Below, piece by piece: positions 30,772-52,739 of a stretch of DNA of 64,000 nt. Under the pieces are notes generated by a model that was not told the origin of the DNA, did not search any database, and was given only the letters and a program-made list of their open reading frames with translations. This DNA is from Candidatus Scalindua sp. (GTDB taxonomy: Bacteria > Planctomycetota > Brocadiia > Brocadiales > Scalinduaceae). Made by a program: the position numbers and the translations under genes. Where the stretch lies: NCBI GenBank assembly GCA_030748215.1, contig JASMMK010000019.1, positions 1-64,000 on the forward strand, written 5' to 3'. How positions within the stretch are numbered: position 1 is the stretch's first letter; the number at the start of each line of letters is the position of its first letter.

Positions 30772-31296
30772 ATGTATAAGGTTTTAATTGCTATATGTAT
30801 TTTTACAGTTGTCACTGTTTTTCAATACAAAAATTTAGCTGAAGGCGCTGATAATCAGGCTCCATCTGCACACACTGACACTCCGGGTGAAATGATGGGC
30901 GAGGTTCCGCAGGAGGAAAAGAGCGAGTTAGCGCTAATGATGCAGGATATTGACGAAAGCTACAAAGCAGTTGAGGAAATGTCAGGCTATTACAAGTACA
31001 AGAAGAAGCAGTGGAAGATAATTCTTAAGGCAGGGGAAAACATTGCAAAAGTAACAAAGGAAGTGAGACTCAAATTTGCAAGGCCTGATGACTTAAGATA
31101 CGAAAAGCAGAACGAATTGATGCAGATAGAGGCGGAAAAAATGGTTGAAATTGCAAAAAATAAGGACAAAGATGGGGCACTTGAAGAGCAACAGTGGCAG
31201 GTGAGGCGTTTGAGGCAAACCTGTGCTATTTGCCACAAACATCTGAAAATTCATATTTATCCTAATCTTTACAAGGATAAAAAACATAACGGTTAG
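30772..31296 (+). CDS. Exported c-type cytochrome, C-terminal heme site
   Basis: The 174-residue protein has a signal peptide (about 1-25), an acidic linker and a mostly helical body. One heme-binding motif, CAICH, lies at 151-155, 19 residues from the C-terminus. Placement of CxxCH near the end of a helical protein is typical of class II (cytochrome c'-like) folds. GGAGAGG eight bases upstream is a good ribosome site. It precedes the two further small cytochromes but has its own promoter. In anammox bacteria such cytochromes act in the anammoxosome; a redox or NO-binding role is inferred. Confidence 0.75.
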   Translation: MYKVLIAICIFTVVTVFQYKNLAEGADNQAPSAHTDTPGEMMGEVPQEEKSELALMMQDIDESYKAVEEMSGYYKYKKKQWKIILKAGENIAKVTKEVRLKFARPDDLRYEKQNELMQIEAEKMVEIAKNKDKDGALEEQQWQVRRLRQTCAICHKHLKIHIYPNLYKDKKHNG

Positions 31297-31599
31297 TAAT
31301 ATGTGATATAAATCACTTAAAACACGCTTAGCTGCCTTTAAAAGTTACTATGAATTTTTACTTGACTCTGTTCTTGCACGATGATATATTTATCCAGAAT
31401 TGCTTAATATTAGACAAGCACTGAGATTTATACTTGTTTGTATTAAGCAAAATGATCAATATTAAAGGGGGGTGAAGTTTTATATTTTTATGTAGAACTT
31501 TGCGGAGTTTGTTATTTTACTGTATACAGACTAAGGCTTTACTCTTTGGCTAACCAGTGAAAGGGGCTTATTTTTTTAATTAAAGGAGGCATAAGTACA
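31297..31599. other. Leader and promoter region of the cytochrome pair
   Basis: The roughly 300-bp gap holds a strong promoter (31362-31390) and about 200 bases of untranslated leader. The leader contains AAAGGGGGGTG near 31465 and ends in AAAGGAGG before the ATG. The long leader could carry regulation, but no known riboswitch is recognised. Confidence 0.45.
31362..31390 (+). promoter_or_regulatory. Sigma-70-like promoter for the cytochrome pair
   Basis: TTGACT, a 17-bp spacer and TATATT: near-consensus -35 and -10 boxes at ideal spacing, about 200 bp upstream of the first of two cytochrome genes. Confidence 0.6.
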
Positions 31600-32013
31600 A
31601 TGAAGGTGAAAAATTTCTTTGTAGCAGGCTTTGTTGTAGTAGCAATGTTTATGGCAAGTACAGCAGTTTTTGCGGGAGATAAGGAAATCTGCAGTAAGCA
31701 GATTGACAAGTATCTGCTGATGAAGATGAACGATGGGTTACTTCCTGGTGACGAATTTAATCCTTACGATTTTAAGGGTGTTGCAGCAGCTGCAGGAGAA
31801 ATGCTCGCTAACGAAGGTGGTAGAACTCACGGCGACAATAATCACGCTGCTATCACTAAACTGGTTTCAGGGCATCTTGCAAATATTGAAACTGCAGCCA
31901 GTAAAGCGGCAGAAGGTTCTGTTGAATCTGTAGGACACTCTTTGAGGTTCCTATATCTTTCATGTAAAGCATGTCACAAGGTATATCAAACTGAAAAAAG
32001 ATTAAGACCTTAA
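31600..32013 (+). CDS. Small class II-like cytochrome c, NaxLS-type subunit
   Basis: The 137-residue precursor has a clear signal peptide (cleavage after VFA, residue 25). The mature protein of about 112 residues is helical, with a single heme motif CKACH (122-126) near the C-terminus, as in cytochrome c'. The only other Cys is Cys31, six residues into the mature chain, in the first helix region where cytochrome c' places its distal residue. This and the adjoining class I-like partner recall the anammox heterodimer NaxLS, whose hemes have His/Cys ligation and which binds NO and CO. AAGGAGG precedes the ATG. Assignment is inferred; which subunit it would be is not decided. Confidence 0.65.
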   Translation: MKVKNFFVAGFVVVAMFMASTAVFAGDKEICSKQIDKYLLMKMNDGLLPGDEFNPYDFKGVAAAAGEMLANEGGRTHGDNNHAAITKLVSGHLANIETAASKAAEGSVESVGHSLRFLYLSCKACHKVYQTEKRLRP

Positions 32014-32100
32014 GATTAGATTGTAATACTAAGGATTTTTATATTGTCACTCAAGCTTAGATAAATTTGAAATCATTATGATTTTAGGAGGTATTGATAA

Positions 32101-32499
32101 ATGAAGAAGTTGAATTTTTTATGCATAATAGGCATACTTGCAGTATCTTGTTTCGCTTTAAGCTTCTCAAGTCAGGCTGACGAACTGGACGACTTGATTG
32201 GAAATCCTGAAAAGAGCTACTACTTCGTATATGCGACCGGTGCTATTCAGGGATCATTCGGTACAATGGAAACATGTGTATACTGCCACGGTAACGGCGG
32301 TAAGGGAACATCAGAAGGAAGGAAAAGAGGAGTGCCAGATTTTACAGATGCAGGATGGCAGTCATCAAAGACAGATGCAGATATGGTTAAGTTTTTGGAA
32401 TCCAATGACAAGGGATGTACAAAGTGCAGAGGAAGAATTTCAGCCGATGCGATTCAGAAGCTTATTAACATAGTTAGAGCTTTTGGCGGATCTAAATAA
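32101..32499 (+). CDS. Small class I-like cytochrome c with Cys in the Met-ligand position
   Basis: The 132-residue precursor has a signal peptide (about 1-25) and a heme motif CVYCH (59-63) followed by the class I-like GNGGKG. The C-terminal segment, normally of type 'MPxxxGxLSxxEIxxL', reads KGCTKCRGRISADAIQKL, so Cys106 aligns with the axial Met and Cys109 is nearby. No Met is available there. A His/Cys-ligated heme, as in anammox NaxLS, is the natural inference. AGGAGGT precedes the ATG, 88 bp after the class II-like gene, and a strong terminator follows. Confidence 0.7.
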   Translation: MKKLNFLCIIGILAVSCFALSFSSQADELDDLIGNPEKSYYFVYATGAIQGSFGTMETCVYCHGNGGKGTSEGRKRGVPDFTDAGWQSSKTDADMVKFLESNDKGCTKCRGRISADAIQKLINIVRAFGGSK

Positions 32500-32524
32500 G
32501 CAAAGCTTAACTATTAAAATATAA

Positions 32525-32569
32525 GGCTCTTTAAGGTATCCGAATGGATACTTTAAAGGGTCTTTTTTA
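32525..32569 (+). terminator. Rho-independent terminator after the cytochrome pair
   Basis: CTCTTTAAGGTATCC and GGATACTTTAAAGGG form a stem of about 14 bp with one mismatch around GAAT, followed by TCTTTTTT. Confidence 0.85.
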
Positions 32570-44814: not shown

Positions 44815-45552
44815 TTATGTATCTATAGACTTTCTGACAATGATAACAGACAAATACCCCCTGCCGGCACCTTTTAGCGATGGAAGGTCACGGGTAATGA
44901 ACTCATCCTTCTGCCCAATATAAGAAGCAAAAAGAGCATTATCAATAAGTTCCATCTCTTCGAGGAGCTCGATTACCTCATCCAGCTTCTTTGCTACTTT
45001 CATCAGAATTACAGTATCAAAGCTGTTAAGTACCGGGCGTAACTCCTCAATATTACTGGATACCGGAATTATTGCTAATTTTTCGCTCTGCTCTATCAAT
45101 GAGAAGTTTGCCAGGCTTGCTGCTGCATTGTAGGATGTAATCCCGGGAATGGTGTGAATCTTCTGTGTAGGAATTATACTGGAAAGCTGCTGTAAGAGAT
45201 AACAGTATGTACTGAATGTTAACGGATCGCCGATAGTAAGATAAGCGACGCTGTTACCGGCGTCAAGTTCACGCTTTATCTCATTTGCGGATGCGAGCCA
45301 GGCGGCCTCAAGTTTAGACTTGTCCTTGACCATGGGATAGACCTGCTCAACTACCCTTTTACCTTCGCAAACGTTAGAGACTATGTCCAGCGCAAGGCTG
45401 GACGCTTTTGAATCTGCCCGTGGTGCAAAAATACAGTCCACAGACTTTATAATACGAACTGCTTTAAGCGTAACCAGCTCGCTATCTCCCGGACCGACGC
45501 CGATGCCATAAAACTCCCCCACGCTGTTATTCATATCAACCTTACTCTTCAT
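44815..45552 (-). CDS. cbiL: Precorrin-2 / cobalt-factor II C20-methyltransferase
   Basis: CbiL/CobI methylates C20 of the corrin precursor. The 245-residue protein has the tetrapyrrole methylase fold: EFYGIGVGPGDSELVTLKA near the N-terminus, the SAM loop YLTIGDPLTFSTY near 102-114 and TIPGITSYNAAASLA near 134-148. C20 specificity is suggested by the GVGPGD(P/S)ELvTLKA start. It is the last gene of the operon and overlaps cbiE by 11 bp. Confidence 0.88.
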   Translation of the reverse strand: MKSKVDMNNSVGEFYGIGVGPGDSELVTLKAVRIIKSVDCIFAPRADSKASSLALDIVSNVCEGKRVVEQVYPMVKDKSKLEAAWLASANEIKRELDAGNSVAYLTIGDPLTFSTYCYLLQQLSSIIPTQKIHTIPGITSYNAAASLANFSLIEQSEKLAIIPVSSNIEELRPVLNSFDTVILMKVAKKLDEVIELLEEMELIDNALFASYIGQKDEFITRDLPSLKGAGRGYLSVIIVRKSIDT

Positions 45553-46192
45553 CCAGGAATATAATCACGTTTAAGTCACTTACCCGTATCTTCAGAATTG
45601 AAGATACATCAAATTCTCGAATTCTCTCTTTTTCCAGTGAGAGATTTTCACAGACGAATATCTTCCTCTCCTTTACTCCGGTCTCTAACAATTTTTTGGC
45701 TATAAGCTTAACATTATTAGCATTATCAGTTAAGACGGCTACTTTATCGTTGTTCGAAATTTTCTTTACAACTGCCGCAAGATTGCCTAATCGCCCGTGC
45801 AGACTCATAAAACATGCATCATTCCATGTTCTGCCTATCCTGGCAAATGCCAACTGAACAGAACTGATACCCGGAATCACTTCACATTTCTCAATACCCA
45901 GTTTATCAACTATTAGTTTTGAATAACTGAAAAGCCCCGGATCACCACTCACGAGAACAACTACCTTCTTCTTCTTTTTACTTAATGACACAATCCTCGT
46001 AATAAGCAGCTTATAGTTATTACTCAACACGTATGTATCTGCGTCTGCATCCGGGAACAGTGACAAAAGCCTCCTGCTGCCAATCAGGACTTCAGCATTA
46101 ATGATATGCTGCATTGCATACCCGGTTATGAACTTTTTAGAACCCGGGCCGCAGCCTACAATAGTAACCTTGTTTACAATCTTTTTTGCCAA
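45542..46192 (-). CDS. cbiE: Precorrin-6Y/cobalt-precorrin-7 C5-methyltransferase
   Basis: The 216-residue protein is the CbiE half only: VTIVGCGPGSKKFITGYA at the start, LVSGDPGLFSYSKLI near 89-103 and EVIPGISSVQLAFARIG near 114-130. In many bacteria CbiE is fused or adjacent to the decarboxylating C15-methylase CbiT, but no cbiT is seen here. The gene overlaps cbiD by 19 bp and cbiL by 11 bp, so translation of the three is coupled. Confidence 0.85.
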   Translation of the reverse strand: MAKKIVNKVTIVGCGPGSKKFITGYAMQHIINAEVLIGSRRLLSLFPDADADTYVLSNNYKLLITRIVSLSKKKKKVVVLVSGDPGLFSYSKLIVDKLGIEKCEVIPGISSVQLAFARIGRTWNDACFMSLHGRLGNLAAVVKKISNNDKVAVLTDNANNVKLIAKKLLETGVKERKIFVCENLSLEKERIREFDVSSILKIRVSDLNVIIFLDEE

Positions 46193-47262
46193 ACCTTAAA
46201 GCCCTTTGAAGTTCCAATAATGTTCTTCTTCATATCAAACATTACTGTTCCTATTTCTATTTTAGATGAGACATATCGGTATGCCGCTTCCTGTACATCA
46301 TCAGCAATACTATTAAATTTATCCAGCCTATTATGTTTTCTCATAATCTCCACCATTCCTTCAACCGTTGGAGACTCTTCAAGTTCACGAACAATTGATG
46401 AACCAATCCCTGCCCCCTTGAACAGGTTGATCAAGATATCATTTGCCGGTTCTGACTCTGAGCTGCGTGTATAAAAATCACCACGAATCAGTTTTGTCAG
46501 CTTACCGGGATGTCCGCCGATTATTACGCTCTTAAAACCGCGCTTAACACTCTCGTCCAGCATAAACCCGACGAAATTACTCATCTGGATTACCTGATCA
46601 CCCTCGACTTCAAAATGCTTCTTGAATCCTGTTTCACCAATGCCTCCGGGAACCAGAACAACCGATTCGTGACCGGCTGCTTTCGCTACATCAAGCCCGC
46701 ACAATAGTGACACCTTAAATGAATCCAGGGACATCGGCCTGACAATACCGGTTGTCCCTATTATGGATATACCGTCAACGATACCCAGTCGCCCATTGAA
46801 TGTCTTCTTTGCCAGCTCTTTACCTTCAGGCACAGAGACGGAAACATCAATCCCGTCAGAAGTTCCCAGGACCTCTTCCAGAGACTGCCTGATCATAGAT
46901 CGTGGTACGGGATTTATAGCCGGTTCACCCTTGGGAACCTGAAGTCCCGGCTTTGTTACAGTACCGACACCATCTCTGGCTATGAACCTGATTCCATTGC
47001 CATTTGACCTTTCGATCCTTACATGAATTTCACAGCCATTCGTAATATCCGGATCATCACCGGAATATTTACGAACTGAACATTCGGCAAAACCGTCACC
47101 CACCTTGCGATGAAGAAGGTTTAACTGCAATGTGATGTCGGCAGGTGTTAACAGATCTATAGACTCGGGTATAATTCCCCGGAGCAGCCCATAAGCCGCG
47201 CCCTTCGCCGCACCTGCAGCACAACTTCCCGTAGTATATCCATATTCAAATTTATCTGACAT
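46174..47262 (-). CDS. cbiD: Cobalt-precorrin-5B C1-methyltransferase
   Basis: CbiD acts at C1 in the anaerobic (early cobalt) pathway, which marks the route used here. The start at 47262 (MSDKFEYGYTTGSCAAGAAK) is chosen because the in-frame extension to 47349 is encoded by two simple repeats. The 362-residue length is normal. Motifs: GYTTGSCAAGAAKGA, a central TTGIVRPMS near 190 and LVPGGIGETGF near 220. It sits between cbiC and cbiE on the same strand. Confidence 0.92.
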   Translation of the reverse strand: MSDKFEYGYTTGSCAAGAAKGAAYGLLRGIIPESIDLLTPADITLQLNLLHRKVGDGFAECSVRKYSGDDPDITNGCEIHVRIERSNGNGIRFIARDGVGTVTKPGLQVPKGEPAINPVPRSMIRQSLEEVLGTSDGIDVSVSVPEGKELAKKTFNGRLGIVDGISIIGTTGIVRPMSLDSFKVSLLCGLDVAKAAGHESVVLVPGGIGETGFKKHFEVEGDQVIQMSNFVGFMLDESVKRGFKSVIIGGHPGKLTKLIRGDFYTRSSESEPANDILINLFKGAGIGSSIVRELEESPTVEGMVEIMRKHNRLDKFNSIADDVQEAAYRYVSSKIEIGTVMFDMKKNIIGTSKGFKVWQKRL

Positions 47263-47278
47263 TTGTTTATAGAGAGAA

Positions 47279-47312
47279 AAGTGTCTAAAGTGAGCTAAAG
47301 TGACTAAAGTTA
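47279..47312 (-). repeat. CTAAAGTGA-type simple repeat
   Basis: AAGTGTCTA, AAGTGAGCTA, AAGTGACTA, AAGTT: 9-10 bp units inside the cobalamin operon, directly upstream of cbiD. Confidence 0.65.
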
Positions 47313-47318
47313 TGGTTA

Positions 47319-47353
47319 TAACCCGCAACTTGCAACTCGTAACCCGCAACGTG
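47319..47353 (-). repeat. Heptanucleotide array in the cobalamin operon
   Basis: Five units on the plus strand: TAACCCG, CAACTTG, CAACTCG, TAACCCG, CAACGTG (minus-strand consensus CGNGTTR). It sits between cbiC and cbiD, next to the CTAAAGTGA repeat. Confidence 0.8.
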
Positions 47354-47358
47354 AAAGC

Positions 47359-48030
47359 CTATCCGGCTTGCTTTTCCTTGGTGATATTGATCAAGGCATT
47401 TACAATTGAGACGGCAACTGCGCTGCCACCTTTTCTGCCGATGTTTACTATGTAAGGGATTTGAACATCTTTTTTATTATCAAGAAATATCTTCAACGCC
47501 TCTTTAGATTCTGACGACTTTACAAAACCGACAGGTACCGCCACTACGAGAGCCGGCACAACCTCTTCTCTTCTAATAAGGTCGATGATTGAGAAAACTG
47601 CCGTAGGCGCATTGCCTACCACAACTATTCCTCCCGATATGTCATCCAGTGACTCCTGCATAGCTGTAATTGCGCGGGTCTTGCCGGACTCCTTTGCCTT
47701 TGCAGCAACATCATCATCCGCAATCCTGCAGATGATCTTTCCACCGAATTTATCTATCGCCTTGGCACTGATACCGACCCTTACCATATTGACGTCAGTT
47801 ACTATAGATTTGCCTGATGATATCGCCTCTGTAGCTGCTTCAACAGCCGTAGGACTTATTATCAGGTTGTATGCATAGTCAGTGTCACCAGTCGCATGAA
47901 TAACCCTTCTTACTATCGGTCTGAATGCTTCCGGAATATTTTTAAAATTGACAAGATTATCAATAATATCAAAGCTCTCATTGATTATTTCCTGCGGGTT
48001 CTCTGAATAGTCTTTAGTCTGTTCATTCAT
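47359..48030 (-). CDS. cbiC: Precorrin-8X / cobalt-precorrin-8 methylmutase
   Basis: CbiC/CobH moves a methyl group from C11 to C12. The 223-residue protein carries the catalytic His in RRVIHATGDTDYA near 44-56 and the family patterns VTDVNMVRVGI near 79-89 and VVGNAPTAVFSIIDLI near 136-151, ending NIGRKGGSAVAVSIVNAL. The length is standard. It follows cbiX by 33 bp. Confidence 0.93.
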   Translation of the reverse strand: MNEQTKDYSENPQEIINESFDIIDNLVNFKNIPEAFRPIVRRVIHATGDTDYAYNLIISPTAVEAATEAISSGKSIVTDVNMVRVGISAKAIDKFGGKIICRIADDDVAAKAKESGKTRAITAMQESLDDISGGIVVVGNAPTAVFSIIDLIRREEVVPALVVAVPVGFVKSSESKEALKIFLDNKKDVQIPYIVNIGRKGGSAVAVSIVNALINITKEKQAG

Positions 48031-48063
48031 ATTTATCTCACTTGATAAAATTTACATGCCAGG

Positions 48064-48438
48064 CTAGTTTACTGACTCTTCTACCCTGTCTGCTACAATC
48101 ATTGCAATACGCTCGTCAGCACCAATATTTTTTGCATAGCAGAACTCTACGTCCGGGAACTTTTTCCGCTCGTTGTCTATCTCTTCAGGGATGTCCTTTA
48201 AAACATGATTTCCGCTGAAAAGCAGAAGAGGCATAACCACGATTCTCTCTGCCCCCCTACCGACTAATACTTCAACCACATCTGTGAGCCCGGGTTTAGC
48301 CAGCTGCAGAAATCCTGCTTCAACCATGTCCCACTTTCCCATTGCACGCAACATTTCTACTATAGTAAACAAACCTTCATTACCGGTTTTCACCTTACTT
48401 CCATGCGCCAATACTATGACGCCTGTTTTTTTACTCAT
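48064..48438 (-). CDS. cbiX: Short-form sirohydrochlorin cobaltochelatase
   Basis: CbiX inserts Co2+ into sirohydrochlorin at the start of the anaerobic pathway. At 124 residues this is the small (CbiX-S) form, half the size of the two-domain enzyme; it acts as a dimer in archaea. The metal-binding His residues are in VIVLAHGSKVK (His12) and LLLFSGNHVLKDIPEEI (near 78). It lies six bases after cbiA. Confidence 0.88.
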   Translation of the reverse strand: MSKKTGVIVLAHGSKVKTGNEGLFTIVEMLRAMGKWDMVEAGFLQLAKPGLTDVVEVLVGRGAERIVVMPLLLFSGNHVLKDIPEEIDNERKKFPDVEFCYAKNIGADERIAMIVADRVEESVN

Positions 48439-48444
48439 TATTAA

Positions 48445-49854
48445 TTACGTCCTTTCCGCTGCTAATTTATGCGTTGATCTCTTTGCCATACTTGATAATA
48501 AATTTACTGCAAGTTTCGGATTACTGCTGAAATGTATATGAGTATAGGATGCCATTACGTTACTATTACATATACCATCAACCCCGGTTCTCTTACCATT
48601 GCTCTTCCTTGTATTATAGGCAAACACGGTACTGTCCGGAACATCCTGAAGCTTAGACCAGTGAAATTCATGGGCACGGAACGTCTCACCTTTACTGCAG
48701 ATCACATTGTCACTTGCCGCTTCGACAATGACATATCCAAGCCCCTGCCTCCTTTTTTCCATCCTTGATGTGCCGTTAAGCACACTACTCATCTTAAACG
48801 ATCTGCCATCACAGTCAATTAATTTTTCCAGCAGGTACATCATACCACCGCATTCGCCATATATAACAGTCCCCTGCTTGTTCGCCTCAAATATTGAACT
48901 CATCATGCTCTCATTCTTCGTTAGTCTATCCGCAAACAGTTCGGGAAACCCCCCTCCCATATATATGCCGTCTATACCATCCGGAAGCGATTTATCATTA
49001 AGCGGGCTGAACTCTACGATCTTAGCGCCCAGTGCTTCAAACAGATCGATATCGTCCTGATAATAGAAACAGAACGCACTGTCCCTGGCAACCGCCACCG
49101 TTACTTCCAGCGAACTGTCTCTCTCTGTAAAAATTAATTTATCATATTCAGGAAAAGCACCGGCCGAACCGGCAAGCTCCTGTAATCTATCAATATTTAT
49201 CGTCTTGCGCACCATCTGCCCAAGTTTATCATAAAGATCAGAATTCACCTTCTGCTCCTCAGAAGGGATCAGCCCCAGATGCCTCTCCGGAATAGTAATA
49301 TCACTCTCCTTTTTCAAATATCCGAGGACTGTGACAGAACAAGACGCTTCGATAGCCTCTTTTACATAATCATAATGGTTCTGGCTTGCAATATTATTCA
49401 GGATCACACCGGCGAGATTGACATCTTTATCAAACCTCGTGAAACCCATTACAACGGCCCCCGCGCTCTGTGCAACACCCCTGGCATTTACAACAAGGAT
49501 TACAGGCGTATTCAGGAGCTTTGTCAGGTGCGCACTGCTGCCATGACCGGAAGAGTCGATACTGCCGTCATACAGGCCCATCACGCCCTCAATAACTGAT
49601 ATCTCGGCGTTAGCAGCAGAGCGTTCAAACAGTTCGAGGCAGGCGTTCTCACCCATCATCCAGGTATCAAGGTTCCTGGATGCATTTCCTGTAACAAAAG
49701 TGTGATGTGACGGATCGATATAATCCGGCCCCGCCTTAAACCCATGCACCTTAATCCCCTTCTGCACCATGGCAGACATGATGCCCAGTGTGACAGTAGT
49801 CTTACCCACCCCACTGTTAGTACCCGCAATCATAATTCTTGGCATCATATTCAT
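48445..49854 (-). CDS. cbiA: Cobyrinic acid a,c-diamide synthase
   Basis: CbiA/CobB amidates the a and c side chains using glutamine and ATP. The 469-residue protein has a P-loop GTNSGVGKTTVTLGIMSAM near 11-29, EGVMGLYDG near 90 and a C-terminal class I glutaminase-like domain with the nucleophile Cys in YGECGGMMYLLEK near 325. No ribosome site precedes the ATG; the upstream gap is taken by a heptamer array. Members for hydrogenobyrinic acid (CobB) are similar; the anaerobic context favours CbiA. Confidence 0.92.
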   Translation of the reverse strand: MNMMPRIMIAGTNSGVGKTTVTLGIMSAMVQKGIKVHGFKAGPDYIDPSHHTFVTGNASRNLDTWMMGENACLELFERSAANAEISVIEGVMGLYDGSIDSSGHGSSAHLTKLLNTPVILVVNARGVAQSAGAVVMGFTRFDKDVNLAGVILNNIASQNHYDYVKEAIEASCSVTVLGYLKKESDITIPERHLGLIPSEEQKVNSDLYDKLGQMVRKTINIDRLQELAGSAGAFPEYDKLIFTERDSSLEVTVAVARDSAFCFYYQDDIDLFEALGAKIVEFSPLNDKSLPDGIDGIYMGGGFPELFADRLTKNESMMSSIFEANKQGTVIYGECGGMMYLLEKLIDCDGRSFKMSSVLNGTSRMEKRRQGLGYVIVEAASDNVICSKGETFRAHEFHWSKLQDVPDSTVFAYNTRKSNGKRTGVDGICNSNVMASYTHIHFSSNPKLAVNLLSSMAKRSTHKLAAERT

Positions 49855-49878
49855 AATTGTTTAGTCAATGGTCATTAG

Positions 49879-49920
49879 TAACCCGAAACTCGAAACCTGC
49901 AACTCGCAACCCGTAACCCG
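49879..49920 (-). repeat. Heptanucleotide array, six units
   Basis: Exactly six 7-mers on the plus strand: TAACCCG, AAACTCG, AAACCTG, CAACTCG, CAACCCG, TAACCCG. On the minus strand each fits CGNGTTR. It fills the gap between cbiB and cbiA. Confidence 0.85.
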
Positions 49921-49924
49921 AAAA

Positions 49925-50959
49925 TCAAAAACCCGGCATTTTGTAAAAGATCCTTGGAGATGACGAGTCAAATGTCCCGAGTATAAAATTGTCTCTACCC
50001 ATCGATAGATAGCCATCAAGCGTCAGGAAAGCAATACCGACAGCAACTGCAATAATTGCTGATACCATAACTATCTTTGAGGTACTGCTGATATCATCAA
50101 AACTGACGTTTTTCTGTGGATCTCCGATAAAGGGTTTATCTGAACGTATATCATTATATACACTCGGCCCCCCCAGCCTGATCCCTAACGCACCGGCGAT
50201 AGCTGCCTCCGGTATTCCGCTGTTAGGACTTGGATGTTTCTGTCCGTCTCTCTTTAATATTTTCACTGAATTTGAATAGTCCGCACCACAGAAATATGAA
50301 GCTATTGGCAGTACTACAGCTGCAATCCTTGCCGGGATAAAATTTGCCACATCGTCAAGCTTAGCCGATGCCCGTCCGAAATCAATATACTTCTCGTTTT
50401 TATACCCAACCATGGAGTCCAGTGTATTAATCGACTTATACGCCATCGCAAGTGCCGGTCCTCCTATAAAAGCGTAAAACAGCGGAGCAATTATACCGTC
50501 AACGATGTTCTCCGCTGAGGTCTCAATACAGCCCGCTGCAATCTGCTCTTCACTCAAATCCTGAGTATCCCTGCCGACAATCCTCGAAAGATTCTTTCGC
50601 GCCTTTTTCAGGTTGCCGGATTTAAGTGCATTCAACACATTACCGGTCTCCCTTAACAGATCACGCGTGGAGAGTGAAAAGAAGATAATGATAATGCTGG
50701 CAAGAATCCCGAGAGGCCATCTAATTTGATAAAAGAAGCTCAATAGTTGATAGGTGACCAGATATGTACCTATAACAATAATGAAGGTGAGGAATATGCC
50801 CGCCACCTGCTCCGAAGGAATAAGCCTACGCAACACCTTCTCGCAATACTCTATACAAACGCCAATCATCCTGACAGGATGCGGAAACCACCTCGGGTCC
50901 CCTATCATTATGTCCAGGAGAAAAGCAATACCAATTTGTACCGGCAAATAATCATTCAT
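49925..50959 (-). CDS. cbiB: Adenosylcobinamide-phosphate synthase
   Basis: CbiB/CobD attaches the aminopropanol (phosphate) arm to cobyric acid at the membrane. The 344-residue protein has about five to seven membrane helices. It shows the family signatures DIMIGDPRWFPHPVRMIG near 15-32, SAENIVDGIIAPLFYA near 149-164 and GQKHPSPNSGIPEAAIAGAL near 241-260. It lies between cobQ and cbiA in the operon. The 200-bp gap upstream of its start contains a simple repeat. Confidence 0.93.
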   Translation of the reverse strand: MNDYLPVQIGIAFLLDIMIGDPRWFPHPVRMIGVCIEYCEKVLRRLIPSEQVAGIFLTFIIVIGTYLVTYQLLSFFYQIRWPLGILASIIIIFFSLSTRDLLRETGNVLNALKSGNLKKARKNLSRIVGRDTQDLSEEQIAAGCIETSAENIVDGIIAPLFYAFIGGPALAMAYKSINTLDSMVGYKNEKYIDFGRASAKLDDVANFIPARIAAVVLPIASYFCGADYSNSVKILKRDGQKHPSPNSGIPEAAIAGALGIRLGGPSVYNDIRSDKPFIGDPQKNVSFDDISSTSKIVMVSAIIAVAVGIAFLTLDGYLSMGRDNFILGTFDSSSPRIFYKMPGF

Positions 50960-50973
50960 AGTAATATTTAACC

Positions 50974-51005
50974 ATGGATTTACACGGACTTACACGGATA
51001 AAGGG
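50974..51005 (-). repeat. ACACGGATTT-type simple repeat
   Basis: GGATTTACACGGACTTACAC followed by GGATAAAGGG, a 10-bp periodic repeat upstream of cbiB. Similar wording occurs at 51165-51190, 52905-52930 and 53290-53340. The rest of the gap 51006-51167 is T-rich, with decayed copies (CTCCGTGGTGAAG, CTCTCCGCG). Confidence 0.5.
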
Positions 51006-51167
51006 ACAAAACTATTATTTTTTGTTTCTTTAAATTTCATTTCTTTTTTTAACTTCAGTGCTTATTCTGTGATTCTCCGTGGTGAAGCTTTTCTTTTATC
51101 TTTTAACTTTAACATTCAAAATTCCTTGTTCTATATTCGATATTCTCTGTGCTCTCCGCGTTAAGAT

Positions 51168-52739
51168 TTATGTCTGTGTAAGTCTGTGGCCAATTTTTTC
51201 GTAAATCAATTCCATATTTATATTTTCCCTGAACAGCTCCGCCAGTTTATCATACTGCCTCTCCTTATCCACACTGCTCAGCTTTTCAGCCAGCATGGGA
51301 GAAAGGCCCTTGCTTTCTCTTAACTTGTTAATAAGACTCAGCCGGAACTCATCGTTGTCGAAGATTCCGTGCAGGTACGATCCTATTACGTTTCCATCAT
51401 CAGAGACTGCCCCGTCATCCATACACACTTGTTTGTCGGATCTCTCGACAATCTTCAGGAATGGTGCGGTTCCGTTGAGCAGTTCTGTCTCACCCATATG
51501 TATCTCATAACCTGTTATTTCACTATCAGAGCCCAAGCCCTTAAAAATATCTGGACCTCTATCATGAACTCTTGCCTTTACCTGGTATGTGTTTTTCTGT
51601 ATCCGGAATAGAGTACTTACGTCAATGAGCCCAAGCCCCTCAGTCTCTAAAGTTTTAGATTCTGCATTTTCAGGGTCCCGAATCACACTGCCAAGCATCT
51701 GGTAACCTCCGCAGATACCGATAACCATTGTGCCGCTCTTTGCAAGATTTATAACGGCATCAGCAATGCCACTCTCCTTTATAGACTCCATGTCGCCGAT
51801 TGTATTCTTGGTGCCCGGCAGGATAATCAGATCCGGATTACCAATCGAACGTGCATTTTCAACAAACCTTACGCATATACCTTTTTCTCTTATAAGAATA
51901 TCAAAATCGGTAAAATTCGAGATCCTCGGCAATCTCACAATAACAACATCAATCACCCCCCCCTGTTTCTCATCTTCTTGCCTCCTGCTTCTAACCTCTT
52001 GCTTCTTGCCTCTATTATCAAGACTCATAGAATCTTCATCATCAACATCAATGTTCGTGAAATACGGCAATACACCCAGAACAGGTTTATTGATCCTCTC
52101 TTCCAGCATATCGATACCTGATTCTAATATTGAGAGATCACCTCTGAACTTGTTAATGATAATCCCCATAACTCTATCACGTTCGTCGCTGTCCAGCAGC
52201 TCAAGTGTTCCCACTATCCATGCGAACGAGCCCCCCTTCTCGATGTCTGTAACAAGAATTACCGGCGCATCTGCAATCTCTGCGATCTTCATATTGACGA
52301 TATCATTGTCCTTGATATTGATCTCAGCCGGACTCCCGGCGCCTTCGATAACGATAACGTCATATTCGTCGCTTAATGACTCATACGCTTCCTTTGCTAT
52401 CTCCAGCATCGAATCCTTATTCTCATAATACTCATAAGCGGTCATATGCCTGAGCGGTCTTCCCATAGTTATTATCTGAGAGCCGTTGTTACCGGATGGT
52501 TTCAACAGGATCGGGTTCATCTCCGCTTCAGGAAGTATCCTTGCCGCTTCAGCCTGAGCAACCTGCGCCCTGCCCATCTCTCGACCGTCCGCTGTCACAT
52601 AAGAGTTGTTGGACATATTCTGCGCCTTGAAAGGAGCAACCTTCAACCCCTCCTGACAGAATATTCGGCATAAAGCACACACCAGTATACTCTTACCAAC
52701 ATCCGACCCCGTCCCCTGTACCATAATGGCCTTAGCCAT
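51168..52739 (-). CDS. cobQ: Cobyric acid synthase
   Basis: CobQ/CbiP amidates the b, d, e and g side chains. The 523-residue protein starts with GTGSDVGKSILVCALCRIF (P-loop) and APFKAQNMSNNSYVT. It has KGGSFAWIVGTLELL near 170 and a C-terminal glutaminase domain with the nucleophile in GICGGYQMLG near 345 and His in SYLHGIFDND. Between the two domains, residues about 242-258 (basic, Gln/Arg-rich) are encoded by a heptamer repeat array absent from typical family members. The last seven residues are encoded by an ACACGGATTT-type repeat. It is the first gene of the operon; no cobalamin riboswitch was found upstream. Confidence 0.92.
   Translation of the reverse strand: MAKAIMVQGTGSDVGKSILVCALCRIFCQEGLKVAPFKAQNMSNNSYVTADGREMGRAQVAQAEAARILPEAEMNPILLKPSGNNGSQIITMGRPLRHMTAYEYYENKDSMLEIAKEAYESLSDEYDVIVIEGAGSPAEINIKDNDIVNMKIAEIADAPVILVTDIEKGGSFAWIVGTLELLDSDERDRVMGIIINKFRGDLSILESGIDMLEERINKPVLGVLPYFTNIDVDDEDSMSLDNRGKKQEVRSRRQEDEKQGGVIDVVIVRLPRISNFTDFDILIREKGICVRFVENARSIGNPDLIILPGTKNTIGDMESIKESGIADAVINLAKSGTMVIGICGGYQMLGSVIRDPENAESKTLETEGLGLIDVSTLFRIQKNTYQVKARVHDRGPDIFKGLGSDSEITGYEIHMGETELLNGTAPFLKIVERSDKQVCMDDGAVSDDGNVIGSYLHGIFDNDEFRLSLINKLRESKGLSPMLAEKLSSVDKERQYDKLAELFRENINMELIYEKIGHRLTQT
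51976..52017 (-). repeat. In-frame heptamer array inside cobQ
   Basis: Plus-strand units TCTTGCC, TCCTGCT, TCTAACC, TCTTGCT, TCTTGCC, TCTATTA: six 7-mers, 42 bp, a multiple of three, so the frame is kept. Minus-strand consensus RGCAAGA. It encodes a basic linker between the ATPase and glutaminase parts of CobQ. Confidence 0.8.

Follow-up and report, generated by a model that had tools for sequence, protein, structure and literature searches.

NaxLS and its counterpart in a Scalinduaceae genome

NaxL and NaxS co-elute, and NaxLS is an NO-binding complex (PMC11897245); that of Kuenenia stuttgartiensis, encoded by kusta0087 and kusta0088, binds hydrazine synthase (HZS), and both NO-shuttle and electron-shuttle hypotheses have been put forward for it (PMC7438415). 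The titles of the PDB entries 6r6m, 6r6n and 6r6o describe the Kusta0087/Kusta0088 complex, with 6r6n being the C32M/C101M and 6r6o the C32G/wild-type mutant. The pair bears on an open question of the nitrogen cycle, namely how anammox cells hold toxic NO and deliver it, along with electrons, to hydrazine synthase.

The window analysed here is a stretch of 64,000 nucleotides from Candidatus Scalindua sp. (contig JASMMK010000019.1 of assembly GCA_030748215.1). A preliminary description had noted in it two exported monoheme cytochromes with one promoter and one terminator in common, and had likened them to NaxLS. The features of this operon are:

31362..31390, + strand: naxLS promoter, TTGACT-17 nt-TATATT with extended TG, sigma-70-like, conserved genus-wide
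31600..32013, + strand: naxL, exported class II cytochrome c; distal-ligand Cys31; heme motif C122-x-x-C125-H126
32101..32499, + strand: naxS, exported class I cytochrome c; heme motif C59-x-x-C62-H63; distal-ligand Cys106; extra Cys109
32523..32564, + strand: intrinsic terminator 3' of naxS, the sole one closing the operon

Both ORFs begin with a signal peptide and each protein has a single CxxCH, as had been described. NaxL (137 aa), the class II-like member, has C122KACH as its C-terminal heme motif and three Cys in total (C31, C122 and C125), of which C31 is the sole extra one, falling at mature position 6 if AVFA is the cleavage point. NaxS (132 aa) has the heme motif C59VYCH and, past the signal peptide, the four Cys residues C59, C62, C106 and C109. 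The Met ligand of class I cytochromes lies in an xMPxxxGxxS motif, and the window NaxS has a Cys in its place, Cys106 within KGCTKCRGRIS; among ordinary class I paralogs encoded by the same genomes this position is occupied by Met (KMP, KMFPF) or by Tyr (YLPFG). The single terminator bears out the earlier account. By consensus score alone the promoter site stands at chance level (8 found vs 8.3 expected), yet it is strongly kept across the genus, with the DNA 5' of it not being conserved. A CRP/HcpR-like palindrome, TGTGATATAAATCAC, at 31302-31316 was rejected as probably a chance occurrence, being a single perfect site that is conserved in no relative and that arises in 33 of 100 shuffles. 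Elsewhere in the window, a long cluster on the minus strand (44815-52739) reads, by eye alone, as anaerobic cobalamin biosynthesis (Cbi genes).

Profile and structure searches gave a consistent picture of the identity of the two proteins. The best PDB match of NaxL is 6r6m_A (E 5e-8 with the single sequence, 4e-45 as a profile) and that of NaxS is 6r6m_B (E 5e-20), and throughout 6r6m, 6r6n and 6r6o chain A is matched by NaxL and chain B by NaxS. The first fold matches of the AlphaFold model of NaxS, which is of modest quality (pLDDT 66), are likewise 6r6n_B and 6r6m_B. Identity to the Kuenenia proteins is about 37% for NaxS and only about 29% for NaxL, the latter a point against the identification; in the alignment with these characterized subunits window Cys31 and Cys106 fall on C32 and C101, the residues mutated in 6r6n/6r6o. 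Given that the NaxL of one locus in our sample (L061) is the same as that of 6r6m, this is the Kuenenia locus, and in its precursor numbering too C32 and C101 are the residues aligned with window C31 and C106. Adjacent genes for a class II and a class I monoheme cytochrome, both orthologous to kusta0087/kusta0088, a Cys at both distal-ligand positions, the gene order, the restriction to anammox bacteria and the presence of hzsA, the gene for the alpha subunit of hydrazine synthase, in the window's own genome all agree with the identification as NaxLS. Hence, we very probably have here the naxLS operon of an anammox bacterium of the Scalinduaceae, to which heme ligation, heterodimer formation, NO binding and docking on HZS would be carried over by analogy with the Kuenenia work.

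Distribution in the anammox order and the fate of the ligand residues

The genome sample comprised 62 genomes of the anammox order (G000-G061) and 13 of sister orders in the same class. A NaxL homolog was recovered (E 1e-5) in 60 of the 62, and NaxS follows NaxL in all 60 loci; one of the two remaining genomes (G024) has fragments of NaxL and NaxS at contig ends. Profiles of NaxL and of a third cytochrome (see below) matched every one of the 62 genomes from the order but not a single one of the 13 from the sister orders, counts that apply to the superfamily since the two profiles cross-match. When a GTDB species collection (~85,000 species) was scanned, NaxL turned up only in planctomycete records, and the organism names given are those of anammox bacteria. 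hzsA was not found in 22 of the 62 genomes of the order, mostly drafts, while complete Brocadiaceae genomes have two copies of equal score; a biological absence was set aside because most of these genomes are drafts and assemblies can lose equal-score copies, with collapsed repeats being the likely cause.

The sampled loci are spread over five families, which include the Scalinduaceae (f1), the Brocadiaceae (f4) and Ca. Bathyanammoxibiaceae (f3), to which the MAGs FULL_50_35, FULL_52_36 and NC_groundwater_1467 have been assigned (PMC9723696); f5 and f2 are probably the Subterrananammoxibiaceae and Anammoxibacteraceae, respectively. Across all five, the position of Cys31 is a Cys in 60/60 NaxL sequences. 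The position of Cys106 in NaxS is a Cys in 51/60 and a Met in 9/60, so that the conservation of the two cysteines, anticipated on the basis of the window alone, holds without exception for NaxL and in part for NaxS. These frequencies indicate that the Cys positions are not a matter of chance. That neither protein rises above a Pfam cut-off might have favored a reading as small cytochromes unrelated to each other, whose cysteines are incidental, but this is refuted by the fact that the two Cys positions, and the pair itself, are conserved, and we regard it as almost certainly wrong.

The Cys in NaxS is present in all Scalinduaceae, in all Brocadiaceae but one, and also in f2 and f5. The Met is found in all eight complete Bathyanammoxibiaceae sequences, in the G024 fragment, and in one genome of the Brocadiaceae (G050). 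The latter NaxS (L082/L095) reads GKGNHMPSY, with the Met accompanied by a one-residue insertion and the Cys gone. The natural Met in NaxS thus reproduces the C101M mutation made by engineering, and the equivalent of C32M never occurs naturally among the sampled loci. As hzsA is present in six of the nine Bathyanammoxibiaceae genomes, a Met in the NaxS of a whole anammox family with hydrazine synthase means that the role can do without His/Cys ligation in NaxS; together with the invariant Cys of NaxL this suggests that the site which cannot be dispensed with is the one in NaxL. In the NaxL tree the Bathyanammoxibiaceae are nested among Cys-bearing families, which would make their Met a reversal; however, long branches are flagged in the tree and the family has been placed basal (PMC10467342), so that Met could also be ancestral in them. 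The Met of G050 has to be a reversal wherever the root is placed.

A second natural change concerns Cys109, which the preliminary description passed over and which forms a CxxC with Cys106 in 19/19 NaxS sequences of f1 and f2 and in 0/41 of the others, with Kuenenia NaxS having a Tyr at this position. It is possible that this CxxC affords thiol/disulfide control of the NaxS heme ligand. In a specific form of this idea a reversible Cys106-Cys109 disulfide would form in f1 and f2, with the thiol redox state setting whether the heme is six-coordinate or open to NO. The strict confinement of Cys109 to these families and the classical redox-active spacing of the two residues speak for such a switch; nevertheless, we consider it rather unlikely, as the Cys pair may be structural or neutral, the crystal structures of NaxS are of the Kuenenia form with its Tyr, and the structural model of the window NaxS has a pLDDT of only 66.

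A paralogous cytochrome and a structured leader next to naxL

Upstream of the naxLS promoter the window encodes a further cytochrome:

30772..31296, + strand: third class II-like monoheme cytochrome, NaxL paralog; CxxCH at 151-155; Met57 at the place of NaxL Cys31

A profile comparison relates it to NaxL (probability 99%, E 6e-20), and its first-helix Met57 is invariant in 55/55 sequences, which, with Met rather than Cys at this place throughout, marks the gene as a paralog and not as NaxL itself. Its AlphaFold model is a four-helix bundle (mean pLDDT 80, and above 90 in the helices), which along with the C-terminal CxxCH places it in class II. Its best fold matches are chain A of 6r6m, 6r6n and 6r6o (rmsd 1.6-2.7, TM by target 0.81-0.83), which it also matches by profile, with Foldseek E-values of only 2e-3 to 2e-2. 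An alignment on 6r6n puts Met57 on Met32, the residue engineered into NaxL. The protein belongs to no Pfam or NCBIfam family, and no mention of it was found in the open literature searched, a scope outside which the primary NaxLS paper lies.

The third cytochrome adjoins naxL in 55 of 60 loci, the five exceptions being due to the end of a contig, to a single ORF that is partial (L092) and to the Bathyanammoxibiaceae genus g8, in which the gene lies elsewhere in the two assemblies where it was found. It is kept in every sampled anammox family. The tree separates the 55 third cytochromes from the 60 NaxL sequences with full support, so that the duplication is older than the sampled order, and with it all sampled anammox families. 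Going by the conserved Met, the third cytochrome probably retains the usual ligation by His and Met and serves in electron transport.

Between the promoter and naxL lies a conserved, structured element:

31462..31590, + strand: structured 5' leader of naxLS, with hairpins P1 (31472-31503), P2 (31506-31532) and P3 (31536-31567) and a U7 run (31571-31577), followed by the ribosome-binding site

This leader of about 130 nt is common to 17/17 Scalinduaceae. In its three hairpins 91.7% of alignment cells are paired, compared with 39-50% in slid controls. Changes on both sides of a pair affect 16 cells, where shuffles gave 5.4 and none of 500 reached this value, and the covariation score is 0.211 against 0.164; the window leader itself folds with z = -2.8. 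P3 is followed by a U run (at least seven in most) directly before the ribosome-binding site, an attenuator-like arrangement, though in four divergent members the P3 stem is weak and has interruptions. With a covariance model, each Scalinduaceae genome yields a single strong copy, in every case ahead of naxL; other families yield no strong copy, and the remaining matches, whether in these genomes or beyond the family, have E 0.006 or worse. Against Rfam there was no match at the gathering score, nor any up to E 5. We hypothesize that the leader is an attenuator regulating naxLS, with a protein-binding or stability element being equally possible. Inspection led us to reject a short upstream ORF starting at a GTG behind the G-tract of the leader, as its frame lengths differ and L044 lacks a start; an antiterminator in which the 5' arm of P2 pairs with the P3 loop was also set aside, not being supported by covariation. 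In the divergent genera g2 and g3 (L048, L049, L039) P2 and P3 are weak, and GGUUAG could pair with CUAACC in their leaders, a hint of an alternative fold which covariation again does not support.

Functional readings and comparison with known systems

By the mechanism that we favor, NaxL would be a four-helix class II cytochrome with its heme held between His126 and the first-helix Cys31, and NaxS a class I cytochrome with its heme between His63 and Cys106. Within the anammoxosome lumen the two would form a tight heterodimer of very low potential and dock on hydrazine synthase, and NO would displace the labile Cys ligand of NaxL, which suggests that the pair could buffer or deliver NO, or hand on electrons, for hydrazine synthesis. 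In Kuenenia NaxLS, NO reportedly binds only in the larger subunit, NaxL, with displacement of its Cys, and an invariant Cys in NaxL combined with a dispensable one in NaxS fits well with this.

Sequence cannot separate an NO shuttle from an electron shuttle. It is quite possible, if short of probable, that NaxLS mainly serves to carry electrons to hydrazine synthase, with the Cys ligands setting a very low potential and NO binding being incidental. Recent literature favors electron supply to HZS by NaxLS (PMC12954380), and the class I half, NaxS, tolerates Cys or Met as would be expected of a tunable electron-transfer heme. On the other hand, the NaxL Cys is invariant in five families alongside a Met-bearing sister that is kept everywhere, which suggests different jobs for the two, and Kuenenia naxLS is strongly down in NO-fed cells (20- and 10-fold in NO-grown cells, while going up under ammonium limitation; PMC7438415). 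A broader NO/electron module of three cytochromes, in which an ancient duplication separated a Cys form for NO from a Met form for electrons, and to which a CxxC switch in marine forms and an attenuator RNA confined to naxL of Scalinduaceae were added, is a speculative proposal that we would hold doubtful. Be that as it may, the universal Met-bearing sister of NaxL and the conserved leader RNA are new parts for any model.

Among known systems, the class II cytochromes (cytochrome c', c-556 and b562) share the four-helix bundle and C-terminal CxxCH with NaxL and the third cytochrome, both of which match them weakly in profile and fold. NaxL differs from all of these in having a Cys as the candidate sixth ligand, while c-556 and b562 have Met as a ligand, as does the third cytochrome in sequence; the latter is class II-like, yet above the cut-off of no Pfam family. 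The next-best matches of NaxS, the anammox cytochromes Kustc0562/0563 and C0855 (7o38, 5mxz, 5xdh), share its class I fold, but their distal ligand is Met, or DOPA according to the title of 5xdh, and unlike NaxS they have no class II partner. A further class I cytochrome (L003, G000:C16:34778-37918), encoded in the same genome as the window NaxS, has YLPFG at the distal position, resembling the His/DOPA cytochrome 5xdh of strain KSU-1. With Kuenenia NaxLS the window locus shares the exported class II and class I monoheme pair encoded by adjacent genes, the Cys at both distal-ligand positions and the anammox-only range. It differs from it in the second Cys of NaxS, which creates the CxxC, a longer loop before the heme, the structured leader of naxL and a shorter gap to the third cytochrome. 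The preliminary description was right to place the locus in a known system, of which it is the version of marine anammox bacteria; new are its third cytochrome, the exchanges of Cys and Met that occur in nature, the CxxC of NaxS and the leader RNA.
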